The position numbers and the translations under genes were made by a program. A stretch of 33,942 nt of DNA from Alkalinema sp. FACHB-956 (GTDB taxonomy: Bacteria; Cyanobacteriota; Cyanobacteriia; Leptolyngbyales; Leptolyngbyaceae), in assembly GCF_014697025.1 (NCBI RefSeq), contig NZ_JACJRC010000045.1:1-33942 (forward strand), in the 5' to 3' direction. The notes under the pieces were generated by a model, which saw only the letters and a list, made by a program, of their open reading frames with translations, was not told the origin of the DNA and searched no databases. The first letter of the stretch is position 1; the number at the start of each line of letters is the position of its first letter. Below are positions 13,543-31,796 of this stretch, piece after piece.

Positions 13543-14703
13543 ATGCCAAGTTACGCCCTTGTCCATGAGTGGTTGACCCCCAAAGCCACTGGCGGATCCG
13601 AACTCGTCGTCCAGGAAATTTTGCAACATATCGATGCAGACCTCTACGCCCTGATTGACTTTGAGTCCCGCAATCCTAAGAGCTATCTCTATCGCCGCCA
13701 GATCGGCCACACATTTCTGCAACGGTTTCCCTTCGCAGAGCAAGGCGTACAGAAATACTTACCCTTGCTGCCCTTGGCGATCGAGCAGTTGGATTTGGGC
13801 CACTATGACATTATTTTGTCGTCCTCCCATGCCGTAGCCAAAGGCGTATTGACCAAAGCCCACCAAATGCATGTGTGTTACTGCCATGCCCCTATGCGTT
13901 ATGCCTGGGATTTGACCTTTGATTATCTCAGCAGCAGTCGATCGGGGCGGGGGTTACCCGGCATCCTGACCCGCTATTTACTGCACCAACTGCGCCAATG
14001 GGATGTTCTTTCGGCCAACCGAGTAGATTATTTTGTCGCCAATTCAAAAACGACAGCGCGACGGATTTGGCGGTGCTATCGGCGGGAGGCAGAGGTGATT
14101 TATCCCCCCGTCGCCGTCGATCGCTTTCCTCTCGTGACTGAAAAACAAGACTTTTATCTCACGGTTTCCCGATTGGTGAGTTACAAGAAGGTCGATTTGA
14201 TTGTCGAAGCCTTTAATCAACTGGGTTTACCGTTAGTGGTAATTGGTGATGGGCCAGACTTACCTAAAATCCGCCAACGTGCCAAAGCCAATATTCAACT
14301 GCTTGGCTGGCAATCCAATGCGGTGGTTGAACGCTACATGGCCCAAGCCAAAGCCTTTGTGTATGCGGCCTACGAGGATTTTGGCATCGCCCCGGTGGAA
14401 GCCCAAGCCTCTGGCACGCCTGTGATTGCCTATGCCGCCGGGGGCACCGGAGAAAGCGTGAAGGATGTTCGCCAGTGGGGATCCCAGGGTACAGGGATGC
14501 TCTTTCCCCAGCAGTCGATCGCCAGCTTACAGGAAACGATCCAAGCCTTTGAACGTCATTACCAACAACTGCAACCAGAGGTGATCCATCAGCACGCCCT
14601 GGGATTTCAGCCCACGGTCTTTCGCGATCGGTACTTGGAATTCCTCGATCGCAGCTACGCCCAGTTCCAAACCCAGCATCAATTCGATCGTCCCGACCTA
14701 TGA
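13543..14703 (+). CDS. glycosyltransferase family 4 protein (exopolysaccharide/O-antigen type)
   Basis: This 386-residue protein is a GT-B fold retaining glycosyltransferase. The N-terminal acceptor domain opens with Y-A-L-V-H-E-W-L-T-P-K-A-T-G-G-S-E. The C-terminal donor domain has L-T-V-S-R-L-V-S-Y-K-K, V-V-I-G-D-G-P and the E-x7-E motif of GT4 (E278-D-F-G-I-A-P-V-E286) followed by A-Q-A-S-G-T-P-V. It should add a sugar from a nucleotide donor to a lipid-linked glycan at the inner face of the membrane. A mannosyl- or fucosyltransferase role would fit the downstream gmd and fcl, but the donor cannot be read from sequence. The ATG has no clear ribosome binding site. It begins the exopolysaccharide block. 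Confidence 0.92.
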   Translation: MPSYALVHEWLTPKATGGSELVVQEILQHIDADLYALIDFESRNPKSYLYRRQIGHTFLQRFPFAEQGVQKYLPLLPLAIEQLDLGHYDIILSSSHAVAKGVLTKAHQMHVCYCHAPMRYAWDLTFDYLSSSRSGRGLPGILTRYLLHQLRQWDVLSANRVDYFVANSKTTARRIWRCYRREAEVIYPPVAVDRFPLVTEKQDFYLTVSRLVSYKKVDLIVEAFNQLGLPLVVIGDGPDLPKIRQRAKANIQLLGWQSNAVVERYMAQAKAFVYAAYEDFGIAPVEAQASGTPVIAYAAGGTGESVKDVRQWGSQGTGMLFPQQSIASLQETIQAFERHYQQLQPEVIHQHALGFQPTVFRDRYLEFLDRSYAQFQTQHQFDRPDL

Positions 14704-14881
14704 CAGGCAAGAGACTGTCCAAAAATTTGATCTTATTTAAGCCAAGTGGGGACGATCGCTTTATGATCGGAACTACATTTCTTCGAAAAAGTGAAAGCTT
14801 TTTTCGCAAAAATTTACAGTTTTTACGGAATCAAACCCACTTTTGTCGAAAAATCAGTGTGTGGTGTGGAGTATGCATAAT

Positions 14882-15589
14882 ATGACTGCCGATAGCCAAG
14901 TTGCTGCGGGCCAGGTCATTCGAAGTCGGTCAAAGTCTCGCCGGGGCAAACCGCCGCTTTGGACTTTACTGGATCGAGCGATCGTCAAACGCCTTTTTGA
15001 TATTGTTTTTTCTTTCTCTGTCCTCATTCTTTTCTCTCCGGTCTACCTGCTTTTGGCCCTACTGGTTGCCCTCAGTTCCGATGGGCCTGTGTTCTACATC
15101 CAAGAGCGCGTCGGTAAGCAGGGTCGGCACTTCGGCTGCATTAAATTCCGCACCATGGTTAATCACGCCGATCGGCTACTGGTGGAAATGTTGGCCAGTT
15201 CACCCCACCTACAACAAGAATTTGAGGACAATTTCAAGCTGAAACACGATCCGCGCATTACCTGGATCGGTCATTTTCTGCGGATCACCAGTTTGGATGA
15301 GTTCCCTCAGTTTTGGAACGTCCTGATGGGCGATATGAGCGTCGTTGGCCCACGCCCTTTGGTACCGGAAGAACTGCACCGCTACGGCGATGCGATCGAG
15401 CAAGTGCTTTCGATTCGACCCGGTATTACGGGCCTATGGCAGGTTTCTGGACGCAACGACATTCCCTATCCCCAACGAGTTCGCATGGATGCCTACTATG
15501 TGAACCATCGCCGATTCTGGTTAGATCTTTGGCTGATTGTCAAAACGGTGCGCGTTGTTCTTTTTCCCAAAAATAACGGTGCCTACTAG
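14882..15589 (+). CDS. polyprenyl-phosphate sugar-1-phosphate transferase (bacterial sugar transferase family)
   Basis: From the ATG at 14882 the product has 235 residues. It has one membrane segment (about 38-64, I-V-F-S-F-S-V-L-I-L-F-S-P-V-Y-L) after K-R-L-F-D, then the cytoplasmic catalytic domain with all family blocks: G-P-V-F-Y-I-Q-E-R-V-G (68-78), K-F-R-T-M (88-92), the D-E-x-P-Q block at S-L-D-E-F-P-Q-F-W-N-V-L, G-D-M-S-V-V-G-P-R-P and R-P-G-I-T-G-L-W-Q-V-S-G-R (179-191). It transfers a hexose-1-phosphate to undecaprenyl phosphate and so starts repeat-unit assembly. GGAG at 14868-14871 suits 14882; a TTG at 14843 and an ATG at 14873 are less likely. A near-perfect hairpin (14784-14806) sits in the 178-bp gap after the glycosyltransferase gene. 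Confidence 0.93.
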   Translation: MTADSQVAAGQVIRSRSKSRRGKPPLWTLLDRAIVKRLFDIVFSFSVLILFSPVYLLLALLVALSSDGPVFYIQERVGKQGRHFGCIKFRTMVNHADRLLVEMLASSPHLQQEFEDNFKLKHDPRITWIGHFLRITSLDEFPQFWNVLMGDMSVVGPRPLVPEELHRYGDAIEQVLSIRPGITGLWQVSGRNDIPYPQRVRMDAYYVNHRRFWLDLWLIVKTVRVVLFPKNNGAY

Positions 15590-15595
15590 ACATTT

Positions 15596-15615
15596 ACTGG
15601 TTCTTTACCAGTTTT
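15596..15615 (+). terminator. short terminator after the sugar transferase gene
   Basis: ACTGGT (15596-15601) pairs with ACCAGT (15607-15612) around a 5-nt loop and is followed by TTTT. It begins only 7 bases after the stop codon, so it could separate the first two exopolysaccharide genes from gmd. Confidence 0.5.
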
Positions 15616-16227
15616 CCACTGGGGGTTGACTAGGTTGTTACTGGGCCGTAACTCAGTAGAAAACCTCAATTTTGTCCCAGTCCACCCCCATCTTCGATAA
15701 AATCTGCATCAGGCATCTGGCGGAACTTTAAGGAGTCTTCGTACACACTTTGGCCGGACTTTATACGATCTTTCCTCAATTCAAGCTAGGCTATTGGCAC
15801 CTTCTTGAGATCAAAGAGTGAATGATGCATGACTTGAGGAATCTAGGACGCTGAAGCCCTGTTTGCAGCAATCTGTTTTCAGCAATACAGCGTAGAAAGA
15901 TCACTGTGAGTCGTTCCAATCACTCCGAATTGAGGGATTAATAAATTCATAAATTTCAATCTCGGACGATCGCTGATTAACGTTCTCATCCGTTCTAATC
16001 AGGGTTTTGCCTAAAAAGTTTGATTTTTATACGGATCCTTCATCTGGCTAGATGAGTTAACTAGAGACCAGACTTGGACTGGGATTAATCGATGGAGTTG
16101 ATCCAATCGGATTGATTCGAACTGTGGCAATTAGACTTTTGTCCTTCCACCAGATTCATCCCAACGCTAGTCTGTAATGATTTGTAAGTGTTTTGTATTG
16201 TGATTCGTAGGGAAGGAAAGAACTAGC
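15616..16227. other. intergenic region upstream of gmd
   Basis: No gene is supportable in these roughly 610 bp. The sequence is AT-leaning with no clear repeats. It must carry the gmd promoter, which I cannot place with confidence. A good ribosome binding site (GGAAGGA) lies just before the gmd ATG. Confidence 0.45.
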
Positions 16228-17298
16228 ATGACGCAACGTAAGCGGGCATTGATTACAGGGATTACCGGGCAAGATGGTTCCTATTTAAGCGAACTCTTGC
16301 TGGAGCAGGGCTACGAAGTGCACGGGATTATCCGTCGTACCTCCACCTTCAACACCGATCGGATCGACCACATCTACGAAGATCCGCACGCAGAAGGAGC
16401 ACGCCTGTTCCTGCACTACGGTGACCTGACCGATGGCACCATGCTGGGTCGCATCATCGAAGAAGTCCAACCCCACGAGATTTACAACCTGGGTGCCCAG
16501 TCCCACGTTCGGGTCAGCTTTGACTCTCCGGAATACACTGCTGACAGCGTAGGCATGGGGGCTCTGCGCCTATTGGAAGCCGTACGGGACTACCAGCAAC
16601 GCACTGGCAATGAAGTGCGTTATTACCAAGCCGGTTCTTCCGAAATGTACGGCAAAGTGCTGGAAGTGCCCCAGAGCGAACTAACCCCCTTCTATCCCCG
16701 CAGCCCCTATGCCTGCGCCAAGGTTTTTGCCCACTGGCAAACCGTCAATTACCGTGAGTCCTACAATCTATTTGCCTGCAACGGGATTCTGTTTAACCAT
16801 GAATCTCCCCGTCGAGGCGAAACCTTTGTGACCCGCAAAATTACCCGTGCAGTCGCTCGCATTGCAGCTGGGAAACAAAAGAAACTGTTCATGGGTAACC
16901 TGGATTCCAAGCGGGACTGGGGTTACGCTAAGGACTACGTGCGGGCTATGTGGCTGATGTTGCAGCAATCCGAACCCGATGATTACGTTGTAGCGACGGG
17001 TGAAACCCACTCGGTCAAAGAATTCCTCGATCTAGCCTTTAGTCGAGTCAACCTAGACTGGCAGCAGTATGTAGAATTTGATCCTCGCTATCTGCGCCCA
17101 GCAGAAGTGGATCTGTTGATTGGCACCCCTGCGAAGGCGAAGGAAAAGCTGGGTTGGGAACCCTCCGTTACCTTCGAAGAATTGGTCAATCTCATGGTGG
17201 ATGCGGATCTGCGGGCCGTCGGTATTGACGCCCCCGCTGGCCCAGTGAATTCCGAGAATGCGATCGTGCGGGAAAACGTAGCCGCGATGTCTTTCTAA
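16228..17298 (+). CDS. gmd: GDP-mannose 4,6-dehydratase
   Basis: The product has 356 residues, the normal length. It converts GDP-D-mannose to GDP-4-keto-6-deoxy-D-mannose, the first step to GDP-L-fucose and related deoxysugars, using bound NADP. The extended short-chain dehydrogenase features are complete: G11-I-T-G-Q-D-G17, the [11 protein letters not shown] block, the catalytic S-S-E in G-S-S-E-M-Y-G (136-142), and Y161-x-x-x-K165. [15 protein letters not shown] follows. It is followed by fcl, the next enzyme, on the same strand, but a terminator and a repeat array lie between, so the two are probably transcribed separately. Confidence 0.97.
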
Positions 17299-17362
17299 AT
17301 GCATCACTCTGAGATGCGTTGGTTTAAGCGATTTCTCCTGATGAGATAGCGGATTTTGGAAT

Positions 17363-17405
17363 AGGGACTGAGAGCATCTCAATAAGCTTTCTCAGTCCTT
17401 ATTTG
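17363..17405 (+). terminator. terminator after gmd
   Basis: GGACTGAGA (17365-17373) pairs perfectly with TCTCAGTCC (17390-17398), extendable outward to 11 pairs with a G-T, followed by TTATTTG. The loop is 16 nt. Confidence 0.75.
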
Positions 17406-17460
17406 TAAGTTCTTAACTGATACGTTCTTAACTTGTAAGTTCTTAGTTGCAAGATCTTGA

Positions 17461-18561
<1,101 letters not shown>

Positions 18562-18877: not shown

Positions 18878-19480
18878 ATGGGCGTAACGCGACATGAGTC
18901 CAACACAACAATAATGACGCTGGCTGAATATTTGGCCTATGACGATGGCACCGACACCCGCTACGAACTGGTGAACGGAGAACGATATCCCATGCCTTCT
19001 GAGAGTGATCTGAATAATCTCATCGCGATCGTGCTGCTGGCAGAATTTCTGAAGTTCCTGCCACCCATGCGCCTGCGACGGGGAACTGAACTCGTCACCA
19101 GTGGAACAAGAGCAACCATCCGCATTCCGGATTTAATGATTTTGCCCGATGAGCTGATCACCCTCCTCAGCGGTGCGAGCCGCAGTCTCATCACCCTGGA
19201 TATGCCACCCCCCATTTTGGTCATTGAAATTGCATCCCCCGGAGTCAGCAACCAAGACCGAGACTATCGGTTCAAGCGATCGGAATATGCAGCCCGAGGC
19301 ATTGAAGAGTATTGGATTGTGGATCCTACACAAGCAAAAGTAACCATCTTCACTTTGGTCGCTGGATTTTATGAAGAACAGGTTTTCACAAAGCGCGATC
19401 GCATTATTTCGCCCCATTACCCTGACTTTGGCTTGACCGTAGCGCAACTCCTGCAAAGTGGCAATTCCATGGGCAGCTAG
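18878..19480 (+). CDS. Uma2 family endonuclease (DUF820)
   Basis: The product has 200 residues, the usual size for Uma2 proteins, a PD-(D/E)XK-fold family greatly expanded in cyanobacteria. The family pattern is clear: M-T-L-A-E-Y-L-A-Y-D-D-G near the start, R-Y-E-L-V-N-G-E, then R-I-P-D-L-M-I-L with the active-site Asp, I-L-V-I-E-I-A-S-P with the Glu, followed by R-F-K-R-S-E-Y-A-A-R-G-I-E-E-Y-W-I-V-D-P. Nuclease activity is presumed from the fold; the biological role is unknown. GGAAAGGG precedes the ATG at 18878; an internal ATG 12 codons on is less well supported. Its stop codon TAG (19478-19480) interlocks with that of the convergent gene in the palindrome CTAG. Confidence 0.92.
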   Translation: MGVTRHESNTTIMTLAEYLAYDDGTDTRYELVNGERYPMPSESDLNNLIAIVLLAEFLKFLPPMRLRRGTELVTSGTRATIRIPDLMILPDELITLLSGASRSLITLDMPPPILVIEIASPGVSNQDRDYRFKRSEYAARGIEEYWIVDPTQAKVTIFTLVAGFYEEQVFTKRDRIISPHYPDFGLTVAQLLQSGNSMGS

Positions 19481-20931
19481 AACCGACAAAGTCCCGGCGG
19501 GCAAAGCTGCGGCAAGGGAAGAATGCATCGATCGCCCGTTTGCCAATCTAGCCGCACAATCCGGTGTTGGTTGGTATCCGCCACAAACAGCCAGTTTTGA
19601 GCGATCGCTAATCCCGCAGGTTCTGCAAAGTCAGTAAACATCGTTTTGCATTGCCCCGTCGCAGGATTGACCCGTTTAATTTTGTGGTTGTAGGTATCCG
19701 CCACCCAGAGATCGGGCTGATTACTGGATGGATCATAAGCAAGACCCAAGCAGTGTTGCAGCCGTACCCCTTCACCCTGGCCATCCAGATCGCCAAAGTC
19801 ATAGAGATTCCCCGATCCACAAACGCTCGTCACGATCGCATCTCCATCTAGCGCAATAGCCCGGACTGTACTGCTTTCACAATCTGCCACAAAGAGCGAT
19901 CGGCCATCCGTAGCCAACCCACTCGGCTGGGCAAAGGCTGCCCGCTCTGCATTGCCGTCGAAACAACCTTCCGCCCCAGTTCCTGCCCAGGTTTGCAACT
20001 GGTTTGTCACCATATCCAGTCGCCAAATCTGGTGGGATCCAGCCATAGCAATCCAGAGGGCGCGATCGTGCCAAAGCACATCCCAGGGGGAATTTAAGGC
20101 GACGTGCTGTGCCAGTCCGCCGTGGGGATGGAGCCAGGGACCTTGAACCCCTGTTCCCGCGATCGTGCTGACCTGCGTAGTTTTCAAGTCGATTTTGCGA
20201 ATGGCATGATTGCCCGTATCGGCCACGTATAGGACTTGCTTCTCTGGATCCAGCGCTAACCCTTGCGGATGGGAGAACTGAGCCGCAATGCCGTCACCAT
20301 CCTGAAATCCCGCCTGCCCCTGTCCGATCGTTTGGCTCATCTGTCCCAAAAAATCAGTCACGACAATGCGATGGTGACCAGAATCGGCAATGAAGAGGCG
20401 ATCGGAGGTGCGATCTGCCAGCACTTTACCGGGAAATCGTAGAGATTCTAGGTGCGGGTCGGGGGGTGGCGGGATCGCGATCGCGGGGGTCGCCTCGGAG
20501 CCTACGAGCGCCTGCAAAGCGGATTCAATGCGAGCCAACTGCCCTTCCCCGATCGCCGTCAGTACAACATAGCCCTGGGCATCAATCAGCACAAAGGTTG
20601 GATAGGCCCGCACCGCATAGGCATCCCAAATCCGTCGATCGTGATCCACAACCACGGGATGACGGATGTCGTAACGCGCGATCGCGCCTTGAATCCCCGC
20701 GATCGTATTTTCTGCATCAAATTTCGCCGTATGCACACCGATCAGCGTCAGGCACGAGTAATATTTTTCCGCCAGCTGGTGCAGCTCTGGCAAAATGTGC
20801 AGGCAGTTGATACAGCCGTAGGTCCAGAAATCCAACAAAATAGGCTGCCCCCGCAATGACGCGATCGAGAGAGCAGCACTATTCAACCAGGTTAAATTTT
20901 GAGGAAACTGGGGTGCACGCACACGAACCAT
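19477..20931 (-). CDS. NHLRC2-like protein: thioredoxin-like domain fused to NHL-repeat beta-propeller
   Basis: This 484-residue protein has a thioredoxin/TlpA-like domain (about 1-145) with L-L-D-F-W-T-Y-G-C40-I-N-C43-L-H-I-L-P-E-L, followed by NHL repeats (about 165-480) with recurring blocks such as L-F-I-A-D-S-G-H-H-R-I, L-Y-V-A-D-T-G-N-H-A-I-R, L-F-V-A-D-C-E-S-S-T-V-R and L-W-V-A-D-T-Y-N-H-K-I-K. The same order of domains and the C-I-N-C active-site motif occur in animal NHLRC2. No signal peptide is visible, so it is probably cytoplasmic. A redox role is inferred; the substrate is unknown. It lies 69 bp downstream of the giant gene on the same strand, so co-transcription is possible. It overlaps the Uma2 gene by 4 bp. 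Confidence 0.92.
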   Translation of the reverse strand: MVRVRAPQFPQNLTWLNSAALSIASLRGQPILLDFWTYGCINCLHILPELHQLAEKYYSCLTLIGVHTAKFDAENTIAGIQGAIARYDIRHPVVVDHDRRIWDAYAVRAYPTFVLIDAQGYVVLTAIGEGQLARIESALQALVGSEATPAIAIPPPPDPHLESLRFPGKVLADRTSDRLFIADSGHHRIVVTDFLGQMSQTIGQGQAGFQDGDGIAAQFSHPQGLALDPEKQVLYVADTGNHAIRKIDLKTTQVSTIAGTGVQGPWLHPHGGLAQHVALNSPWDVLWHDRALWIAMAGSHQIWRLDMVTNQLQTWAGTGAEGCFDGNAERAAFAQPSGLATDGRSLFVADCESSTVRAIALDGDAIVTSVCGSGNLYDFGDLDGQGEGVRLQHCLGLAYDPSSNQPDLWVADTYNHKIKRVNPATGQCKTMFTDFAEPAGLAIAQNWLFVADTNQHRIVRLDWQTGDRCILPLPQLCPPGLCRF

Positions 20932-21000: not shown

Positions 21001-24000
21001 CTATTGTTTCTCTGCCGTAGCCGAGGCTCCTGCCGTCACTGGTTTTGGATTGGCGGCTTTATTTGGCTCAGCAGTTTGATCGATCGGCGTGGAAGGCTTT
21101 AAGTACGCTTTCAGGTAATCATACTTATCTGCTGGGTTATCTGCCTTATCTGGCTTATTTGTCTGCACCTCAGATTTCTGTTCGGACACCTTTTTATCCG
21201 ATCCAGCTTGATCCGATCCAACCTTTTCAGATACAGCGGAACTGGTCGCAGGCTTCACCGGAGGCGCGATCGGAGCTACGGGTTTAGCAGGTGTAACAGA
21301 TTTAACCGGAGCCGCCGCTGGAACTGGAGCCACCGGTTTAGCGGGTGCAATGGGTTTCACGGCATCAGCTTTCACCGGGGTAACGGGCTTCACCGTGTTA
21401 GCCGCTTTCACAGGAGCTACCGCTTTAACTGGGGTAGCAGATTTAGCCGGTTGTCCGATCGTGGGTGCGCGATCGGGTTTGGACAATCCAGGCACACTCG
21501 GCTTAGATGCTGGAGCAGACGACACAGATCCACCTGTCTGAGCCGCAGGTTTGCTCGTTGTCACCGCTGTTTTTGGTGTCACTACTGTTTTTGGAGCAAC
21601 CACAGGTTTAGCCACAGGCGTGATCTTCACCTCAGGCTGTTTCACAGTCACTGCTTTGGGAGGATTGGTTAAGGCTTCTGGGCGAGCGATCGGACGAGCA
21701 GCAGGAGCCGTTTTTGTCGCCGTTGAGGCGGAAGGAGGAACAGATTGTTTGACCTCTTGCTTCACCTCAGCGCTTTTCAGCACTGGCTTAGCAGCTTCTG
21801 GCTTAGCAGCTTCTGGCTTAGAAACTTCTGGCTTAGCAGCTTCCGGTTTAACCGTATCAGCAGATTTCTTAAACCGTTCCAGGAAGCTATTCAACGGATT
21901 GGCCTCTGGAGTTGCGATCGCGCTAGATTTAATCGCGCCAGGTGTAACCGAACTCGGTTTAGCCGATGCAGACCCCTGGGGCTTGACCACAGGCTGCCGA
22001 TCGTCGGCTTGCTTCAAGCGCTTGACGAGTTCATCCAAACTTTCCGGTTGGGACACCGGAGCAGGCGTCACCACGGGCGCAGGTTTTGGAGCGGCAATAT
22101 TAGCCTTGGGCGCTGCGGGTGTCGGCACTGCAATTGCAGGAACCTTAGGCGCAGCCACTTTCGGGGCAACTGGTGGGGCAACTTTCGGGGCAATGGGGGC
22201 CGGAGGCGCGATCGTGACGGTTGGTTTAGGTGCAGCTGGTTTAGGTGCAGCTGGTTTAGGCGCGACTAGCGTAGGGGCGACTGGTTTCGCTGTGACCGTC
22301 GGACTTGCCTTCACGACAGGTTGCGCTGTGGGGCTACTAGCAGGTTTAACCGTTGGTTTAACCGATGTAGAAACGGTCGGTTTCGCGATCGATTTCGCCT
22401 CGGGCTTCACGGTTGCCTTCGGTTCTACAGACTTCGGTTCTACAGACTTCGGTGCGGGAGATTGAGGAGCCAACTTCGTCCCTGGCTGCGGGGCTAGCTT
22501 GCTCGGCTCCGGCTTTTTAGCTTCCGGCTTGACTTCCAGTTTGGCAGCAGGGGACGGTGTTGAAGATTTCACCGTTGGGGTAGTGACGGGTCTAGTTAAT
22601 GGTTTAGCCGTCACAGGTTTAGCCGTCACAGGTTTAGCCGTTGCGGCGGGTTGGGCGATCGGCGGAATCGCTGGTTTCCTGTCAGCTTTTACCGTTGGCT
22701 GACTTTCCACCTTGGTTTCCACCTGAGTGGTTTCCACCTGAGTTACTGACTTGCTCTCCGGCTTGCTCTCTGGCTTTTGGAACCGTTCTAAAAATCCCTT
22801 GAGAGGATTTTCAATTTTCTCCGGTGCGGTCGGAGTGGGGGCAGCTTTTGCCGCTGGTTGGCTCGTCGTTACGGGCTGAGGCGCGATCGCCGGGGCAATC
22901 GGTTTAGCCACTGGAACTACGGGTTTCACCGTTGGGACGATCGCTGGAGCCACGGGAGCTTTCGGGGCCACCTTGACCGCAGAGGCCGCAGGTGCTTTTG
23001 CCTCAGATTTTTTCTCTGCTGGAGCGGCCTTCACCGCTGGGCTGGTTTTAGCTGGGCTGGTTTTAGCTGGACTCGTTGCAGTCGCTGGAGTCGGCTTTGG
23101 AGCAGCTTTGGGCGCGATCGTGGTCACAGGGGTTGCAGCTGCTTTTGGAGCCGTTGTCGGCGCAGTCGTTGCTGGCTGACGGAACCGCTGAAGGAAGCCA
23201 CCTAGCGCATTCTGAGGGGATTGAGTTTCAGCTGTGGATGCAGGCTTAGCAACTTCAGGCTTAGTAACTTCAGGCTTAGCAACTTCAGGCTTCAGCGTTG
23301 TCACTTTTGCCGAAGGTGTCGGCGTCGGTACTGTCACCGCTGCGGGGCTGGGCGCAACGGGTTTCACGATCGGAGATTTCGGCGCTTGCGGTTGCTTAGC
23401 CACTGGCTGTTTAATCTCTGGTCGTTTAATTTCGGTTGACTTGACCTCTGGTTGCTTAACTTCCGGCTGCTTCACCGAGGACTTCACTGCTGGGGTCGCA
23501 GTGGGCAACGGGTTCACAACCTCGGGCTGCGTTTTAGCCTCGGGCTGGGCTGGAGAAGCTTTTCGGAAACGATCGAAGAAATTGCTGAAAGGCAACTCTT
23601 CCGCCTTAGCCTCAGGTTTCACCGCTTCCGGTTTCACTGAGGAAGGAACAGAGGACGGCTTTTCAGGCACCTTTTCAGGCACCTTAGTCTCTGTGGGTAC
23701 CTTCGTCTCTGGCAATTTCGCCGCTGGTTTGACCGTTGGCGGAACAGTGACCTTTGGCGCAAGCTTCACAGGTTCCGGAGTCTTCGCCTTCAGATCCGTA
23801 GGAATCGGCGTTTTCTCGATCGTCGGTTTAGCCTTCTCAGCTTCCGGCTTGGGTTGGGCGATCGCAGGTTTCAGTTCCTCCCGAACCTTGGGAGCTGGAC
23901 TCACGATCGGCGCAGGGGATGCCGCCGGAGAGGGTGATGCCGGAGCCGCAGGTTTCCGGAAACGATCCCAGAAGCCTCCGCCACTTGCCTTTTCCGTCGG

Positions 24001-26616
24001 TTTTTCGATCTGCTTTTCAGGTGCTGTCTTCAGTTTTTCAATTGTGGAAGTCGCCGCTTTGGAAGTCGTCGCCTTACTCCATTCTTCTTTCGGCGCAGCT
24101 GGTTTCGGGGCAACGGCAGGAACCTTCGGCGCAACCGGCACCGGAGAAGCTTCCGATTTAGGCGCAGTTATGGGCACCGGAATAGGCACCGGAGCGACCT
24201 TCGGCGCAGCAACCTTCGGCGCAATTAACGGAGCAGTAGATTTCACAGGGGCCACAGGCGCGATCGCGGGTTTAGGCGCAACCTCTTTGGCTTCGGGTTT
24301 AGCTACCGACTTCGCTTCGGGCTTTACTTCCGTTGCTTTCTGTTCAGCCGGAGGACGGGCCGCAGGACTAGCTTGGGGCGCTGCTGAAGGTTGGACTGCG
24401 GCTGGGGGGGCTGGCTTGCGGAAACGATCGAAGAACCCACCCTTTTTCTCAGTTTCTTTTTTCTCAACCGGCGGAGTCACCGTTGGAGCACTCGCCTTGG
24501 GCGCTGGAACGATCGGTGTAACGGCTGGCTTCGGCGCGGGTACAGGCTGACTCGGAGTAGGGGCCGCAGCTTTCCCTGGAATGGGAATCGGAATGGGAAT
24601 CGGGATCGGCACCACATTCGGCTTGGCAGTCGGCGCAGGTGAGATCGGGGGTTGAACCGGATTTGGAGGCGTTTGCAGCTTCACCGTTGCCGGTTCTGGC
24701 GTTTTCTCCCCCGCAGGACTTGCAGAAGGACTCGCAGAAGGTGTCACCGTAGGAGCGACAGAAGGCTGAACCTGGGATTGGACTTCTGGCTTGGCTTCTG
24801 CTTGAACCTCAGGTTTAACGTCCTTCGCTTTGGTTGATTCGGGCGCGGATTTGCGGAAGCGATCGAAAAATCCTCCCTTCTTCTGGGGCGGTGCTGTCTT
24901 AGCAGCCGCTTCCGGCACAGAAGTTTCCGGTGCTTTCAGCTTCACTGGAACCGGGGTCGGCGTTTCCGCCGCTTTGGACGGCTCAACCTGAGGCGTTTCC
25001 GCTTTCGGCGTTTCTACCTTAGGTGTTTCCACCTTAGGCGTCTCCAGTGAAGACGGAGCTGACTGCGGCACTACTTTAGCAGGCTCAACGGGTTTCGCAG
25101 ATTCGATCGGTTGAGGCGCGATCGAGGGTTTGACTTCTGTTCTACGCCCCGGAGACAGCTTAAAGAAACCTTTCTTAGCGGGGGCTTTTTCGGGGGGCAC
25201 CACTGGCACCGCAGGGGCAGGCTCTTCGACCTTCAACGGAGTAGGAACGGGCGCGGGAGAAACCACTGCTGGGGATTTCTCCGGTGCAGACAGCACTGGT
25301 TCTACAGGTTTTGCAGTTGGACTGGGAGAAGTGCTAGGGACAGCGCTAGGAGCTTTAGCTTTTTCCGCAGCCAGCTTGCCTTTTTTGACTTTTTGTTTTT
25401 CAGGCTGCGTCTCGGGTTTCGCTGATTCTGCTTTAGAATCCGACGATGATCCAATGGGAATCGGAATGGGAATCGGAATAGGCACAGCCCCAGGAGCCGC
25501 TTTGAGATCACCGGGTTTAATATCAGCCGATTTGAGATCTGCCGATCCTTTAGATTCGATCGCAGGGGTACTGGGCGCGGGCATCGGCTCAGGCGTTTTT
25601 TCCTTCGCAGATTCGGCAGGCTGTTGACTGGGCGCGGGCGAAGCCTCCGGCGAACCCGTTGGGGCTACCGTTGGCGAAACTACGGGACTGGGGACTGGCT
25701 CTGGGGGGTGATAGTTGGGATCCACTATTCCCCGCGCTTCAGCGATCGTCAATTCCCCTCGGGTCAGTTTAGATAAGGTGTCATTTCCCCCTGGCTCAAA
25801 GGTAAAGACCCGCGCCGTATTATTGGCGAAATTCTCGATCGCCCGACCTTTATCGTTAATAAATTCCAACTGAACCCAGTTTTGACCCGGTTTAAACCCC
25901 TTCAGATAAATCGGTTGCCAACGATCGAGGGTAAAGCTTTGTCCATTGACCGTTGCCTTAATCTTCCAATCCTCAACCTCATCCTTTTTATTACCTTGGG
26001 CAACTAAATGAAGCGGCGCATTGGTTAAGTAAAAATCCAAAAGAATGGGCTCGGCTCCATAGGTTCCCTGGGGCCGACTGTAGGTCAGCAATGGTTTATC
26101 AGGATCCGGCGTATTTTCCCCCGTCTTTGTTAAGACATGAAACGTAACTTGGGCATAGGCCCCATCATTTTTAAAACTCTCATGCCAAGGGCGAGAAGCA
26201 AACACCCGCAGCGTGTGGGTTCCTGGCGTCAAATCCTTTAGCTGCAACGGCTGGCTAACGTCATACACCGCCTGGTAGGGCTGATTATCTAAAAAGAGGT
26301 GCAGATGGGGCCCTAAACCAAATTTTGCATCTTTATAAATAGGCAGATCTTTGACGCGAAACCGCACATCAGCCGTCGTGTCCTGCAACACTTCATCGGC
26401 CTTCGGACTGATGACCGCAATTTGCGGCTGATACTTTTCCAGTACTTGACGCAGTTCCTGAATAACCAGCGGTGGCGACGCTTCTGATAGTTGTCCCGAG
26501 GTCTTCACCGAAGCAGCCAAAGCGGGGGAACCACTCCATAGACCCATCAGCAACATCACCAAGCCCAGGGCAACGGGCTTCTTTAAGGTTGTCCACCAGC
26601 GACGCCGTCCCACCAC
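21001..26616 (-). CDS. giant exported Pro/Ala/Lys-rich disordered protein with repeated F-x-R-F motifs
   Basis: From the GTG at 26616 the product has about 1871 residues. This start is preferred over a TTG at 26658 because AAGGAG (26626-26631) lies nine bases before it and the product opens directly with a signal peptide (G-R-R-R-W-W-T-T-L-K-K, then V-A-L-G-L-V-M-L-L-M-G-L-W, then S-P-A-L-A-A). The first 310 residues or so are folded and beta-rich, with P-Q-I-A-V-I-S-P, L-G-P-H-L-H-L-F-L-D-N-Q-P-Y and T-H-T-L-R-V-F-A-S-R, like tandem immunoglobulin-like modules. The remaining 1500 residues are Pro, Ala, Lys, Val, Glu, Thr and Ser, with (Pro-Ile)n runs and seven F-[FWL]-x-R-F-x-[KQ] motifs. 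Almost no aromatic residue lies outside the motifs. I do not recognise the family. It is divergent from psaA. Confidence 0.88.
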   Translation of the reverse strand: MVGRRRWWTTLKKPVALGLVMLLMGLWSGSPALAASVKTSGQLSEASPPLVIQELRQVLEKYQPQIAVISPKADEVLQDTTADVRFRVKDLPIYKDAKFGLGPHLHLFLDNQPYQAVYDVSQPLQLKDLTPGTHTLRVFASRPWHESFKNDGAYAQVTFHVLTKTGENTPDPDKPLLTYSRPQGTYGAEPILLDFYLTNAPLHLVAQGNKKDEVEDWKIKATVNGQSFTLDRWQPIYLKGFKPGQNWVQLEFINDKGRAIENFANNTARVFTFEPGGNDTLSKLTRGELTIAEARGIVDPNYHPPEPVPSPVVSPTVAPTGSPEASPAPSQQPAESAKEKTPEPMPAPSTPAIESKGSADLKSADIKPGDLKAAPGAVPIPIPIPIPIGSSSDSKAESAKPETQPEKQKVKKGKLAAEKAKAPSAVPSTSPSPTAKPVEPVLSAPEKSPAVVSPAPVPTPLKVEEPAPAVPVVPPEKAPAKKGFFKLSPGRRTEVKPSIAPQPIESAKPVEPAKVVPQSAPSSLETPKVETPKVETPKAETPQVEPSKAAETPTPVPVKLKAPETSVPEAAAKTAPPQKKGGFFDRFRKSAPESTKAKDVKPEVQAEAKPEVQSQVQPSVAPTVTPSASPSASPAGEKTPEPATVKLQTPPNPVQPPISPAPTAKPNVVPIPIPIPIPIPGKAAAPTPSQPVPAPKPAVTPIVPAPKASAPTVTPPVEKKETEKKGGFFDRFRKPAPPAAVQPSAAPQASPAARPPAEQKATEVKPEAKSVAKPEAKEVAPKPAIAPVAPVKSTAPLIAPKVAAPKVAPVPIPVPITAPKSEASPVPVAPKVPAVAPKPAAPKEEWSKATTSKAATSTIEKLKTAPEKQIEKPTEKASGGGFWDRFRKPAAPASPSPAASPAPIVSPAPKVREELKPAIAQPKPEAEKAKPTIEKTPIPTDLKAKTPEPVKLAPKVTVPPTVKPAAKLPETKVPTETKVPEKVPEKPSSVPSSVKPEAVKPEAKAEELPFSNFFDRFRKASPAQPEAKTQPEVVNPLPTATPAVKSSVKQPEVKQPEVKSTEIKRPEIKQPVAKQPQAPKSPIVKPVAPSPAAVTVPTPTPSAKVTTLKPEVAKPEVTKPEVAKPASTAETQSPQNALGGFLQRFRQPATTAPTTAPKAAATPVTTIAPKAAPKPTPATATSPAKTSPAKTSPAVKAAPAEKKSEAKAPAASAVKVAPKAPVAPAIVPTVKPVVPVAKPIAPAIAPQPVTTSQPAAKAAPTPTAPEKIENPLKGFLERFQKPESKPESKSVTQVETTQVETKVESQPTVKADRKPAIPPIAQPAATAKPVTAKPVTAKPLTRPVTTPTVKSSTPSPAAKLEVKPEAKKPEPSKLAPQPGTKLAPQSPAPKSVEPKSVEPKATVKPEAKSIAKPTVSTSVKPTVKPASSPTAQPVVKASPTVTAKPVAPTLVAPKPAAPKPAAPKPTVTIAPPAPIAPKVAPPVAPKVAAPKVPAIAVPTPAAPKANIAAPKPAPVVTPAPVSQPESLDELVKRLKQADDRQPVVKPQGSASAKPSSVTPGAIKSSAIATPEANPLNSFLERFKKSADTVKPEAAKPEVSKPEAAKPEAAKPVLKSAEVKQEVKQSVPPSASTATKTAPAARPIARPEALTNPPKAVTVKQPEVKITPVAKPVVAPKTVVTPKTAVTTSKPAAQTGGSVSSAPASKPSVPGLSKPDRAPTIGQPAKSATPVKAVAPVKAANTVKPVTPVKADAVKPIAPAKPVAPVPAAAPVKSVTPAKPVAPIAPPVKPATSSAVSEKVGSDQAGSDKKVSEQKSEVQTNKPDKADNPADKYDYLKAYLKPSTPIDQTAEPNKAANPKPVTAGASATAEKQ
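21865..24870 (-). other. seven aromatic-basic F-x-R-F motifs spaced through the disordered region
   Basis: On the minus strand, in order of translation: FFDRFRK (24850-24870), FFDRFRK (24415-24435), FWDRFRK (23953-23973), FFDRFRK (23560-23580), FLQRFRQ (23176-23196), FLERFQK (22774-22794) and FLERFKK (21865-21885). Most are preceded by K-K-G-G, G-G-G or N-x-L-x-x and followed by Pro, Ser or Ala. A divergent copy, K-K-G-F-F-K-L-S-P-G-R-R, precedes them near 25165, and an aromatic-free relative, L-D-E-L-V-K-R-L-K-Q, lies near 22020. Spacing is about 130-150 residues for most. Each could form a short amphipathic helix in a disordered chain. Confidence 0.85.
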
Positions 26617-26667
26617 GCGATCGTTCTCCTTATAAAAAACGAATTTTGTCAAAGGCAATACTATTTC

Positions 26668-27274: not shown

Positions 27275-29542
27275 ATGACAATCAGCCCACCGGAGCGCGA
27301 GGCGAAGGTGAAGGTTGTTGTCGATAAGGATCCGGTTCCGACTTCCACCGAAAAATGGGGTCAGCCTGGTCACTTCGATCGCACCCTCGCTAAGGGTCCC
27401 AAAACCACCACTTGGATTTGGAACCTCCACGCTAACGCTCACGACTTCGATAGCCATACTTCTGACTTAGAAGACGTATCTCGCAAAATTTTTAGCGCCC
27501 ACTTTGGTCATTTGGCCGTTGTGTTCATTTGGCTCAGTGGCATGTATTTTCATGGCGCTAAGTTTTCAAACTATGAAGCTTGGTTGACGGATCCCCTAGG
27601 TGTTAAGCCTAGTGCACAGGTCGTTTGGCCTATCGTCGGTCAAGAAATTTTGAATGGTGATGTCGGTGGTGGATTCCACGGCATCCAAATTACGTCTGGC
27701 TTATTCCAGATGTGGCGCGCCGCCGGTATTACAAACTCCTACCAGCTGTATGTGACTGCTATTGGTGGTCTGGTGATGGCTGGTTTGATGTTGTTCGCTG
27801 GCTGGTTCCACTACCACAAAGCAGCTCCGAAGCTGGAATGGTTCCAAAACGCCGAATCCATGATGAACCACCACTTGGCTGGTTTATTCGGTCTGGGTTC
27901 ACTGGCGTGGGCGGGTCACCAAATCCACGTTTCTCTGCCGATTAACGAACTGTTGGACAAGGGCGTTCCTGCGAGCAAGATTCCTCTGCCGCACGAGTTC
28001 ATCCTGAATCCTCAGTTGATGGCAGACATCTATCCCAGCTTTGCCAAGGGCTTAACCCCCTTCTTTACCTTAGACTGGGGCGCGTATGCTGACTTCCTGA
28101 CCTTCAAGGGTGGCTTGAACCCCGTGACCGGTGGCCTGTGGCTGACCGATACGGCGCACCACCACCTCGCACTGGCAGTGATGTTCATCGTGGCTGGTCA
28201 TATGTACCGCACGAACTGGGGCATTGGCCACAGCATGAAGGAAATCCTGGAAGCTAACGGGCCCGACCCCGTCATGATTACTGGGAATGGTCACAAGGGT
28301 CTATACGAAACCTTGACCACCTCTTGGCATGCAAACCTCGCTATTAACCTAGCGATCGGTGGCTCTGTCACCATCATCGTGGCTCAGCATATGTATGCAA
28401 TGCCACCCTATCCTTACCTGGCGACAGACTATGCGACGCAACTGTCGCTGTTCACCCACCACATGTGGATTGGCGGTTTCCTCATCGTAGGGGCTGCAGC
28501 TCACGGTGCCATCTTCATGGTGCGTGACTATGATCCCGTTGTAAACCAAGGCAACGTGTTGGATAACGTTATCCGTCACCGCGATGCCATCATCTCTCAC
28601 TTGAACTGGGTTTGTATCTTCCTCGGCTTCCATAGCTTTGGTCTGTACATTCACAACGACACCATGCGGGCCTTCGGACGTCCTCAGGACATGTTCTCCG
28701 ATACCGCAATCCAACTTCAGCCCATCTTTGCGCAGTGGGTGCAAGGCATCCATGCAGCTGCAACAGGTTTGGGTTCCACTGCTCCTGGTGCACTGGCTCC
28801 GGCAAGTGTTGCCTTCGGTGGAGATGTTGTAGCGGTCGGTGGCAAGGTTGCCATGATGCCGATCTCCCTGGGCACCGCAGACTTCCTGGTGCACCACATC
28901 CACGCCTTCACAATTCACGTGACGGTTCTCATCCTGTTGAAGGGTGTTCTGTTTGCCCGTAGCTCTCGTCTGATTCCAGACAAAGCAAATCTGGGCTTCC
29001 GCTTCCCTTGCGACGGGCCTGGTCGCGGCGGTACCTGCCAAGTTTCTGGTTGGGATCACGTTTTCCTAGGTCTGTTCTGGATGTACAACTCCATCTCGGT
29101 TGTGATTTTCCACTTCTCTTGGAAGATGCAGTCCGATGTCTGGGGTACTGTTTCGCCCGATGGTACTGTGAACCACATTACCTACGGCAACTTTGCTCAA
29201 AGCGCAATCACCATCAATGGTTGGCTGCGTGACTTCCTGTGGGCGCAAGCTTCTCAGGTCATCAACTCCTACGGTTCTGCACTGTCTGCTTACGGTCTCA
29301 TGTTCCTGGCCGCCCACTTCATCTGGGCCTTCAGCCTCATGTTCCTGTTCAGCGGTCGCGGCTACTGGCAAGAATTGATTGAGTCCATCGTTTGGGCACA
29401 CAACAAGCTAAAAGTGGCTCCTGCTATCCAGCCTCGTGCTCTGAGCATCATCCAGGGTCGAGCTGTGGGCGTGGCACACTACCTCTTAGGCGGAATCGCC
29501 ACTACGTGGGCGTTCTTCCTAGCTCGGTCACTTTCACTATGA
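27275..29542 (+). CDS. psaA: photosystem I P700 chlorophyll a apoprotein A1
   Basis: The product has 755 residues, as expected. It is one of the two large subunits of the photosystem I reaction centre in the thylakoid membrane, binding P700, A0, A1, the FX iron-sulfur cluster and most of the core antenna chlorophyll. Eleven membrane helices are evident. The FX motif F-P-C579-D-G-P-G-R-G-G-T-C588 is intact, and H681 in A-A-H-F-I-W-A-F-S corresponds to the P700 axial ligand. The many chlorophyll-binding His pairs ([15 protein letters not shown]) are present. The ATG at 27275 follows GAGGAG at good spacing and gives the family N-terminus M-T-I-S-P-P-E-R-E; an in-frame extension upstream is rejected. 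It is co-transcribed with psaB 25 bp downstream. Confidence 0.99.
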
Positions 29543-29567: not shown

Positions 29568-31796
29568 ATGGCGACTAAATTTCCAAAATTTAGCCAAGAC
29601 CTTGCCCAAGATCCGACGACTCGTCGTATTTGGTACGGGATCGCCACGGCTCATGACTTTGAAAGCCATGACGGAATGACGGAAGAGAAGCTCTATCAAA
29701 AGATCTTCGCAACCCACTTCGGTCACCTGGCAATCATCTTCCTGTGGGCTTCTGGCAGCCTGTTCCACGTTGCTTGGCAAGGCAACTTCGAGCAGTGGAT
29801 TAAAGATCCGCTGAATGTTAAACCGATCGCTCACGCGATTTTTGACCCTCAGTTTGGTAAGGGTGCCGTTGATGCCTTCACCCAGGCAGGCGCTTCCTAC
29901 CCTGTGGACATTGCTTACTCCGGTGTTTATCACTGGTGGTACACCATCGGGATGCGCACGGTTGGGGATCTGTATCAAGGTTCCATCTTCCTGCTCATTC
30001 TGTCTGCAATCCTGCTGTTTGCTGGTTGGCTGCACTTGCAACCCAAGTTCCGTCCCAGCTTGGCATGGTTCAAAAATGCTGAATCCCGTCTGAACCACCA
30101 CTTGGCTGGTTTGTTTGGGGTGAGCTCCCTGGCTTGGACTGGTCACCTAGTTCACGTCGCAATTCCTGAATCCCGTGGTCAACACGTGGGTTGGGACAAC
30201 TTCCTCTCTGTAGCGCCTCACCCCGCAGGTCTAGCTCCCTTCTTCACAGGGAACTGGGGTGTGTATGCACAGAACCCTGATACCGCTGGCCATGTCTTTG
30301 GCACAGCTCAAGGTGCAGGAACCGCAATTCTGACCTTCTTGGGTGGCTTCCATCCTCAGACCGAGTCCCTGTGGCTCACTGATATGGCCCACCACCATCT
30401 GGCAATTGCCGTCCTCTTCATCATTGCTGGTCACATGTACAAGACCAATTTTGGAATTGGTCACAGCATGAAAGAGATCATGGAAGCGCACAATCCTCCT
30501 AAAGGCACGCCCTTCGGCGGCATGATTGGGGATGGGCACAAAGGGATGTATGACACCTACAACAACTCCCTGCACTTCCAGCTCGGTTGGCACCTGGCTT
30601 GCTTGGGCGTAGTTACCTCTCTGGTAGCTCAGCACATGTACTCCATGCCTCCCTACGCGTTCATCGCGAAAGACTTCACCACGATGGCAGCGCTTTACAC
30701 CCATCACCAGTACATTGCTGGGTTCCTGATGGTTGGTGCTTTTGCCCATGGTGCAATCTTCCTGGTTCGTGACTACGATCCAGAAGCCAACAAAAACAAC
30801 GTTCTGGCACGGATGCTGGAGCACAAAGAGGCTCTCATCTCTCACCTGAGCTGGGCTTCCCTCTTCCTGGGCTTCCACACCCTGGGTCTGTACGTCCACA
30901 ACGACGTTGTGGTTGCTTTCGGAACTCCCGAAAAACAAATCCTGATTGAGCCTGTCTTCGGGCAATGGGTTCAAGCATCGTCTGGTAAGCTGCTCTACGG
31001 CCTCCAAACGCTGTTGTCCAACCCTGAAAGCGTGGCTTACACGGCTTATCCTAACTACGGTAACGTTTGGTTGCCGGGTTGGCTGGAAGCCATCAACAGT
31101 GGCAAGAACTCCTTGTTCCTGACGATCGGCCCTGGCGACTTCCTGGTACACCACGCGATCGCGTTGGGTCTGCACGTAACCACCTTGATTCTGGTCAAGG
31201 GCGCATTGGATGCTCGCGGCTCCAAGCTGATGCCCGACAAGAAAGACTTCGGCTATGCCTTCCCTTGTGATGGCCCCGGTCGTGGCGGTACTTGCGACAT
31301 CTCTGCATGGGATTCCTTCTACCTGTCCATGTTCTGGATGCTGAACACCATTGGCTGGGTTACGTTCTACTGGCACTGGAAACACCTGTCTATTTGGTCT
31401 GATAACGTGGCTCAATTCAACGAGTCTTCGACCTACTTGATGGGCTGGTTCCGTGACTATCTGTGGCAGTACTGTGCTCCGCTGATTAATGGTTACAACC
31501 CCTATGGCATGAACAACCTGGCTATCTGGGCATGGATCTTCCTGGGTGCTCACTTGGCTTGGGCAACTGGTTTCATGTTCCTGATTAGCTGGCGTGGTTA
31601 CTGGCAAGAGTTGATCGAAACCCTCGTTTGGGCACATGAGCGCACTCCTCTGGCGAACCTGGTTCGTTGGAAGGACAAGCCGGTGGCTCTGTCCATCGTG
31701 CAAGCACGCTTGGTTGGTTTAACTCACTTCACTGTGGGCTACATCTTTACCTACGCGGCGTTCTTGATTGCTTCGACTGCTGGTAAGTTCGGTTGA
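29568..31796 (+). CDS. psaB: photosystem I P700 chlorophyll a apoprotein A2
   Basis: The product has 742 residues and is the heterodimer partner of PsaA. It opens [22 protein letters not shown] and has the same eleven-helix plan. The second half of the FX site is present (F-P-C567-D-G-P-G-R-G-G-T-C576), as is the P700 ligand H662 in [10 protein letters not shown]. The end [13 protein letters not shown] is diagnostic. An AGGAGG lies 18 bases and TAGGA eight bases before the ATG. The loop near residues 308-322 ([16 protein letters not shown]) looks longer than I recall for Synechocystis, which is within normal lineage variation. It is the second gene of psaAB and ends at a strong terminator. 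Confidence 0.99.

Follow-up and report, generated by a model that had tools for sequence, protein, structure and literature searches.

A giant exported cyanobacterial protein with repeated amphipathic motifs, encoded divergently from psaAB: a candidate membrane-side tether

The stretch of DNA studied here (the window) is 33,942 nucleotides long and comes from Alkalinema sp. FACHB-956 (GCF_014697025.1, contig NZ_JACJRC010000045.1, positions 1-33,942). Beside the photosystem I (PSI) genes psaA and psaB, and divergent from them, it carries a gene for a protein of 1,871 amino acids (Table 1), consisting of a signal peptide, a head (residues 35-307) and a low-complexity tail of 1,564 residues. An original prediction, made from the letters of the window, had proposed a giant exported protein with repeated motifs at this place, and the observation is confirmed. 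The minus-strand frame is unbroken over 1,885 codons (21001-26658). Its first codon, a TTG at 26658, is an alternative start; GTG 26616 is the better choice because AAGGAG sits nine bases 5' of it. Two plus-strand open reading frames (304 and 438 codons) overlap the tail in antisense and are put down to its repetitive codon pattern rather than taken as genes.

Export, which had been part of the original claim, is supported by a Sec signal peptide, read by eye, that ends ALA|AS. Reading of the signal region found no Cys anywhere in it; the window protein lacks a lipobox cysteine, as do many members of its family. According to a 2025 study, the H-regions of lumenal signal peptides are more hydrophobic and helical than those of periplasmic ones (PMC12341915). 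The H-region of the window signal is very hydrophobic, with no threshold that would place it as lumenal or periplasmic.

Known domain families do not recognise the protein, as had been proposed: hmmscan of the whole sequence against Pfam gave two matches, both below the cut-off (E 0.11 and 0.17), NCBIfam gave none, and a profile search of the head against PDB sequences gave a single match (E 0.6). Against our alignment of homologous heads (A1), of which it is itself a row, the window head of about 270 residues scores E 6.1e-148, and it is 62-69% identical to the full heads of its family in relative genomes. AlphaFold2 folds the 272-residue head, from 49 sequences, into two beta sandwiches with short helices (predicted local distance difference test, pLDDT, 87; predicted template modelling score, pTM, 0.83). 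The best Foldseek match is 3pdd, the pair of Fn3 modules of CbhA (E 4.3e-9, TM-score 0.26), while VIA-align against Fn3-type modules gives a best Z of 5.8, with none reaching 8. The head is therefore predicted to consist of two Fn3/Ig-like modules. It has its beta-sandwich fold in common with Fn3-type modules such as 3pdd and the B1 domain of CelAly (9kvu), but at a TM-score of 0.26 and Z below 8 a specific kinship is not demonstrated. Among the matches listed by Foldseek and VIA-align no specific structural relative stands out, though one may exist.

In the tail we found the seven proposed F[FWL].RF.[KQ] motifs and a divergent copy. Their spacing, given originally as about 130-150 residues, is mostly of that order (145, 154, 131, 128 and 134) but includes one double gap of 303. 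Aromatic residues are, as claimed, largely confined to the motifs: seven 10-residue windows (70 residues) hold 18 of the 25 in the tail (17/20 F, 1/2 W, 0/3 Y), together with 12 of the 24 R but only 8 of the 203 K. A slightly looser pattern also gives seven copies, compared to a mean of 0.00005 and a maximum of 1 in 20,000 shuffles. The seven copies differ in their codons synonymously, which argues that the motif is not a recent DNA repeat and points to selection acting on the protein. In helical geometry the motif shows one aromatic and one cationic face, and its Eisenberg moment (100 degrees) reaches 0.65-0.77 vs. a tail mean of 0.28 and a 95th percentile of 0.56; as a beta strand its moment (0.31-0.56) stays below the 95th percentile of 0.61.

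Table 1. Features of the gene and its PSI neighbours. Positions are those of the window; residues are counted from GTG 26616.
Feature	Position	Strand	Remarks
Whole gene	21001..26616	-	GTG start at 26616, 1,871 aa
Sec signal peptide	26515..26616	-	Residues 1-34, ..VALGLVMLLMGLWSGSPALA|AS; read by eye
First Fn3/Ig-like beta sandwich (predicted)	26128..26430	-	Head residues ~63-163; AlphaFold2 and VIA-align
Second Fn3/Ig-like beta sandwich (predicted)	25789..26097	-	Head residues ~174-276; AlphaFold2 and VIA-align
Low-complexity tail	21004..25695	-	Residues 308-1871; P/A/K/V/T/S-rich by composition
Divergent motif copy FFKLSPG	25147..25167	-	Residue 484, context GFFKLSPGRR
Motif 1 FFDRFRK	24850..24870	-	Residue 583
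Motif 2 FFDRFRK	24415..24435	-	Residue 728
Motif 3 FWDRFRK	23953..23973	-	Residue 882
Motif 4 FFDRFRK	23560..23580	-	Residue 1013
Motif 5 FLQRFRQ	23176..23196	-	Residue 1141
Motif 6 FLERFQK	22774..22794	-	Residue 1275
Motif 7 FLERFKK	21865..21885	-	Residue 1578
Amphipathic segment DELVKRL	22015..22035	-	Residue 1528
Amphipathic segment DYLKAYL	21100..21120	-	Residue 1833
Divergent intergenic region to psaA	26617..27274	.	psaA ATG at 27275
psaA	27275..29542	+	PF00223 match
psaB	29568..31796	+	PF00223 match

The idea that the motif stems from a repeat at the DNA level or a HIP1-like element was rejected on the synonymous codon variation; orthologues, moreover, use FFNR besides FFDR. A degenerate DNA pattern has four matches in the genome itself, three in the gene and one in an unrelated 93-codon frame. 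With a narrower pattern, 25 matches were seen in 58 relatives: 15 lie in the gene, nine in unrelated frames no longer than 164 codons and one in a P-rich frame of 409 codons on a different contig of its genome (G010). The backwards control pattern gave three in the relatives.

Conservation was followed in 101 tails, i.e. the window tail and 100 unique uncut tails of at least 100 residues (from 134 loci, 113 unique); shorter and cut tails were excluded. The named loci come mostly from L087-L166, the best 80 of 493 candidates, so the set leans towards close relatives. The strict motif occurs in 44 tails (114 copies; 0.02 in shuffles), rising to 50 tails (129 copies) once the fifth place may also be R; several Nostocales carry GGFFNRR. 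A broad pattern reaches 58 tails (146 copies; 0.18 in shuffles), and its reversed control still matches 16 times in ten tails, so part of this signal is local F/R richness. The consensus of the 129 copies is K-G-G-F-F-[ND]-R-F-[RK]-R-P. Motif-bearing relatives hold one to seven copies, and tails with one or two are common.

In 78 alignable tail pairs (motif in both, lengths within 35%, more than 60% of the first tail aligned, linker identity 45-97%), identity was 79% in the motif vs. 59% in the linker, with the motif ahead in 72. Since the pairs are related by descent and were picked for holding the motif, and since F is favoured by the aligner, we regard this result as support and not as proof. 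Nonetheless, the motif is found in many homologues and, in these pairs, is better kept than the linkers; the opposite outcome, which would have counted against the original prediction, did not occur. Mapped onto a tree built from 103 heads, the motif label requires 20 changes, of which no fewer than 11 are forced by well-supported branches, suggesting that the motif was gained or lost repeatedly in the family. In the window's own clade (support 87/94, not starred) all 18 rows have it.

Longer tails tend to hold more motifs (Spearman 0.67, n=96 tails). Tails range from none to 1,661 residues in 106 unique uncut proteins, and the giants are one end of this range. Two giant orthologues have open frames of 1,970 codons stop to stop with six FFDRF-type motifs (L057, 5018-10927, minus strand) and 1,526 codons with five FWxRF-type motifs (L080, 6434-11011, minus strand). 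Over 79 spacings the median is 66 residues and 57 are 100 or less, compared to 128-303 in the window and 66-189 in these two giants. The net charge of the tails has a median of -0.055 per residue; 22/101 are positive, the window tail (+0.064) among them. The claim of a disordered tail is supported by the predicted structure of a 480-residue orthologue, whose 220-residue tail has a pLDDT of about 33-47 per block. The sole secondary structure in that tail is a low-confidence helix (residues 371-373) lying within the second motif (367-375).

Other short segments accompany the motif or take its place. The DELVKRL segment of the window has counterparts of the form L[VL][DKE][RK]L[LKN] in four other tails (L036, L038, L047, L058). 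DYLKKYL, represented in the window by DYLKAYL, occurs four times in the giant L057 and in none of the other 99 tails. Tails of other lineages have, by eye, different amphipathic, cationic segments within them or at or near their end (L196, L198, L199, L203). It is this general design, short amphipathic grips along a flexible spacer, that is seen again and again, more so than any single sequence. A second motif, LPPTLPEIIETP-like, was seen in Nostocales and other tails (e.g. L125, L129, L161); as LPEIIExP it is present in 30/101 tails (50 copies; 0.19 in shuffles) and absent from the window tail, and where a looser version follows the FFNRF motif (51 cases), the distance is 17-28 residues in 23. 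Separately, TELERRLG was noticed in 11/101 tails (L033, L034, L035, L036, L037, L045, L047, L049, L087, L091, L139), all of which fall in the window's clade; the window itself lacks it.

The original prediction of an exported protein with a multivalent layout is supported; to this we add that the head is a family spread through the class, mostly lipoprotein-like. A regular expression detects a lipobox-like Cys past a hydrophobic stretch in 84 of 133 homologues and an AxA site only in 34, and leaves 15 unassigned. Most homologues thus look like lipoproteins, and lipidation may be read as the ancestral state. The mean motif number is 1.86 in 35 tails without a lipobox (L033, L091 and the window placed there by eye) vs. 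1.05 in 61 lipobox tails. The idea that extra motifs compensate for a lost lipid anchor was dropped, since these means are confounded by ancestry and tail length.

The head was found in 54 of 58 relative genomes, the window's own included. In a sample of 386 genomes across the phylum, 162 have the head and 185 have PSI; counted among the matches listed, 160 of the 185 PSI-bearing genomes have the head. The other 25 are 23 f2 genomes (1.6-1.9 Mb), which we take to be Prochlorococcus-like, and two f16 genomes (G049 and G286), which presumably represent Gloeomargarita. The relatives search also found no head in G047, presumably Gloeobacter violaceus and here called Gloeobacter-like, which has a rhodopsin and lacks CAAD/CurT. 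A laxer head search of 11 genomes matched two f2 genomes known to have the head and none of the other nine, and the stretches beside psaA in eight of these nine gave no head homologue (best E 1.8). By homology, most cyanobacteria beyond a few reduced or basal lineages appear to carry the exported head-tail protein, usually adjoining PSI genes.

Two observations on individual genomes may be recorded here. Three Prochlorococcus-like genomes (L218, L219, L222), those with inspected frames, have a frame of 610-624 codons, cobalamin-pathway-like by reading, that diverges from psaA at the place the gene holds elsewhere. G076, which belongs to a different class (3% contamination, no PSI or photosystem II (PSII) matches), has a tail-less, lipoprotein-like head homologue of 242 residues (L202, 5875-6603, plus strand), possibly through transfer or contamination.

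The divergence from psaAB, already part of the original prediction, is conserved. Among 54 fetched loci, 44 have an upstream, divergent psaA. In four of the remaining ten the upstream sequence is at most 1.7 kb long and in one it is 4 kb, while five have at least 7.8 kb with no psaA in it. Among the matches listed, 139 genomes (G076 omitted) give both places: in 112 a PSI gene lies no more than 12 kb away, always divergent, and in 27 the two are unlinked (18 far off on the same contig, nine on another contig). The linkage is widely kept, yet is not needed for the gene's persistence. As to co-regulation, an RpaB/HLR1-type pattern, with up to three mismatches, was found in 52 of 56 intergenic regions that include a psaA start, and reversed in 37/56; in 50 loci without a psaA start the counts were 17 forward vs. 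15 reversed.

Three genomes separate the gene from PSI. G196 has no PSI match, G230 and G313 have weak PSI matches only, and the PSII matches of all three are fragments with stops; we infer that they are non-photosynthetic endosymbionts of rhopalodiacean diatoms. Their head frames are open (L194-L196), with the lipobox GLIGCKD or GLISCKD, and the ratio of nonsynonymous to synonymous substitution rates (dN/dS) among these heads is 0.10-0.15, consistent with purifying selection. The tail beyond the head is 34 residues in G196 vs. 140 and 146 in G230 and G313. CAAD/CurT is likewise kept. The E. clementina endosymbiont is reported to keep thylakoid membranes despite photosystem loss (PMC11070190), and the R. 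gibberula endosymbiont genome to be about 3.02 Mbp, more than 200 kb above that of E. turgida (PMC5638926). Because the head is kept under purifying selection without PSI, it is not a PSI part; its job is not tied to PSI and could still belong to the thylakoid. These lines lost photosynthesis only recently, which makes retention alone weaker evidence than the low dN/dS.

Other neighbours were named by reading. Directly downstream of the gene (19477-20931, minus strand) lies a protein that is thioredoxin-like plus NHL-repeat-like, a homologue of which is close to the gene in 7/54 loci, including both giants, L057 and L080. Further away (13543-18561, plus strand) are glycosyltransferase-, sugar-transferase-, GDP-mannose dehydratase- and GDP-fucose synthase-like genes, with counterparts close to the gene in L033, L034, L035, L037 and L049.

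Taking as given the export signal, head fold, motif conservation, lipobox-like site of most homologues, persistence without PSI and neighbourhood, all of which come from computation, we infer membrane binding, bridging, a partner and a compartment as follows. Tentatively, the protein is a membrane-side tether that holds on to a membrane through many weak contacts, each made by a short amphipathic, cationic motif. The exported head would sit at the far face of a cyanobacterial membrane, probably through a lipid anchor in most species and free in that of the window, and would hold a partner there. The proline-rich tail would act as a flexible spacer, and its motifs, on contact, would fold into one or two amphipathic turns that bind anionic membrane lipid, each weakly and many together. 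The chain could thereby bridge or line membrane surfaces across the lumen or periplasm, on the same surface or the opposite one, with a copy number that scales with tail length. We favour this reading because of the strong amphipathicity of the motif in helical form, where its moment is two- to threefold the tail mean. The lipobox-like Cys of 84/133 homologues would put those heads at a membrane surface, and the simplest use of an exported, often lipid-anchored-looking head with many weak grips on a long spacer would be to hold a membrane surface.

The compartment is harder to assign. The psaAB linkage, the absence from the Gloeobacter-like genome and the retention in endosymbionts of a thylakoid-keeping kind lean towards the thylakoid, whereas the bulk of the tail, the lipobox and the absence from thylakoid-bearing Prochlorococcus-like genomes lean towards the envelope. 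Several points weigh against a membrane tether. Even with R allowed at the fifth place, 51/101 tails have no motif, and most tails are net negative, which disfavours a purely electrostatic grip on anionic lipid. Thylakoids do not require the head, judging from the headless PSI-bearing genomes, since all seven scanned (two f16 and five Prochlorococcus-like) have CAAD. A chain of 1,560 residues is bulky for the thylakoid lumen, an amphipathic turn of seven residues binds a membrane weakly, and the orthologue tail model is of low confidence throughout.

Wall binding and self-association explain the same anatomy as a tether. It is possible, if rather unlikely, that the protein is a periplasmic linker across the wall, with its head at the inner or outer membrane, its tail threading the thick peptidoglycan and its motifs binding peptidoglycan or anionic wall polysaccharide. 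Long P-rich spacers are typical of wall-crossing proteins, the lipobox-like Cys of most homologues and the survival of the gene in endosymbiont-like genomes would fit, and sugar/exopolysaccharide-type genes adjoin it in the window and the five loci named above. However, these are five of 54 loci, scans of the window protein with Pfam and NCBIfam found no peptidoglycan-binding or other wall-binding domain, most tails are net negative, and it is left unexplained why the gene is missing from the Gloeobacter-like genome, whose bearer has a wall too.

A more specific version of the membrane-side tether, which we think unlikely, makes it a thylakoid-architecture protein of the lumen, the head, free or with a lipid anchor, on one leaflet and the sticker tail on the facing one, forming an adjustable zipper that would set the spacing of the lumen. 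Its origin would postdate the divergence from Gloeobacter, which has no thylakoids; the gene would lie beside psaAB as both are needed for making a thylakoid, and would be kept by diatom endosymbionts that have lost photosystems but not thylakoids.

The concentration of aromatic residues and R in 70 of 1,564 tail residues, and the one to seven copies of relatives, would also suit a scaffold of condensates or networks, in which F and R act as cation-pi stickers and the K/P/A linkers as spacers, so that tails self-associate and gather the partners of the head. We consider this distinctly unlikely, since tails with one or two copies are too few-handed for a network alone and most homologues look lipid-anchored. 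An assembly or lumenal docking factor for PSI, co-expressed with psaAB, would account for the divergent arrangement (44/54 loci; 112/139 genomes among the matches listed), but is quite improbable: such a factor should occur only with PSI and wherever PSI is, while the head is under purifying selection in G196, G230 and G313, is missing from 25/185 PSI-bearing genomes and is unlinked in 27/139 by the same count, and the promoter pattern is frequent in reverse too. Highly improbable, finally, is an inert low-complexity expansion with motifs as relics carried along by duplication of a repeat unit, to which the often regular spacing within a protein (65, 65, 65 in L126), the wide range of tail lengths and the motif-less half of the tails point, but against which stand motifs that outlast their linkers in 72/78 pairs, differ in synonymous codons between window copies and persist in 18/18 rows of the window's clade.

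Known systems offer analogies to the candidate tether; from CsoS2, TonB/TolA and the wall connectors it differs in a defining feature each. CsoS2, the alpha-carboxysome scaffold invoked in the original prediction, is likewise a long disordered chain with many short conserved motifs and variable linkers. That likeness of layout holds, but CsoS2 is a cytosolic protein encoded with carboxysome genes, whereas the window protein has a signal peptide, a folded N-terminal head, psaA, psaB and a thioredoxin/NHL-like gene as neighbours, and a motif not known to be related to those of CsoS2. TonB and TolA also hold a long P/K/E-rich segment outside the cytoplasm; the window protein differs in its seemingly cleavable signal peptide and repeated aromatic motifs, and hmmscan (E of 1 or less) found no C-terminal TonB or TolA domain in it. 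Lpp, OmpA and SlpA, which connect outer membrane and wall, resemble it in their long envelope reach and in the possible lipid anchor of most homologues; no wall-binding domain was found in the window protein. CurT/CAAD matches the head in its absence from the Gloeobacter-like genome and presence in the endosymbiont-like ones; it has its own Pfam family (PF14159), unmatched by the window protein, and occurs in seven headless genomes. CurT is reported to be clearly missing in Gloeobacter, Yellowstone Synechococcus and Gloeomargarita (PMC6395441); the CAAD Pfam model nonetheless matches in the two f16 and five Prochlorococcus-like genomes.

A literature search, judged by titles and the openings of abstracts and with supplementary tables lying outside its reach, found no publication pointing to the gene or its motif. 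Locus tags of model strains led to no paper, the listed papers that contain a motif string look unrelated by title, and the accessible part of the CyanoTag report (PMC11804935) has nothing on the gene. How thylakoid and envelope membranes are spaced, lined and connected on their non-cytoplasmic side is poorly known in cyanobacteria. The family offers a natural series of zero to seven motifs on tails of variable length, which makes the relation of motif number and tail length to membrane spacing directly testable, and the genomes that keep the gene after losing PSI are its natural control. More broadly, the endosymbiont-like genomes provide a natural experiment for separating photosynthesis-linked from membrane-linked genes.

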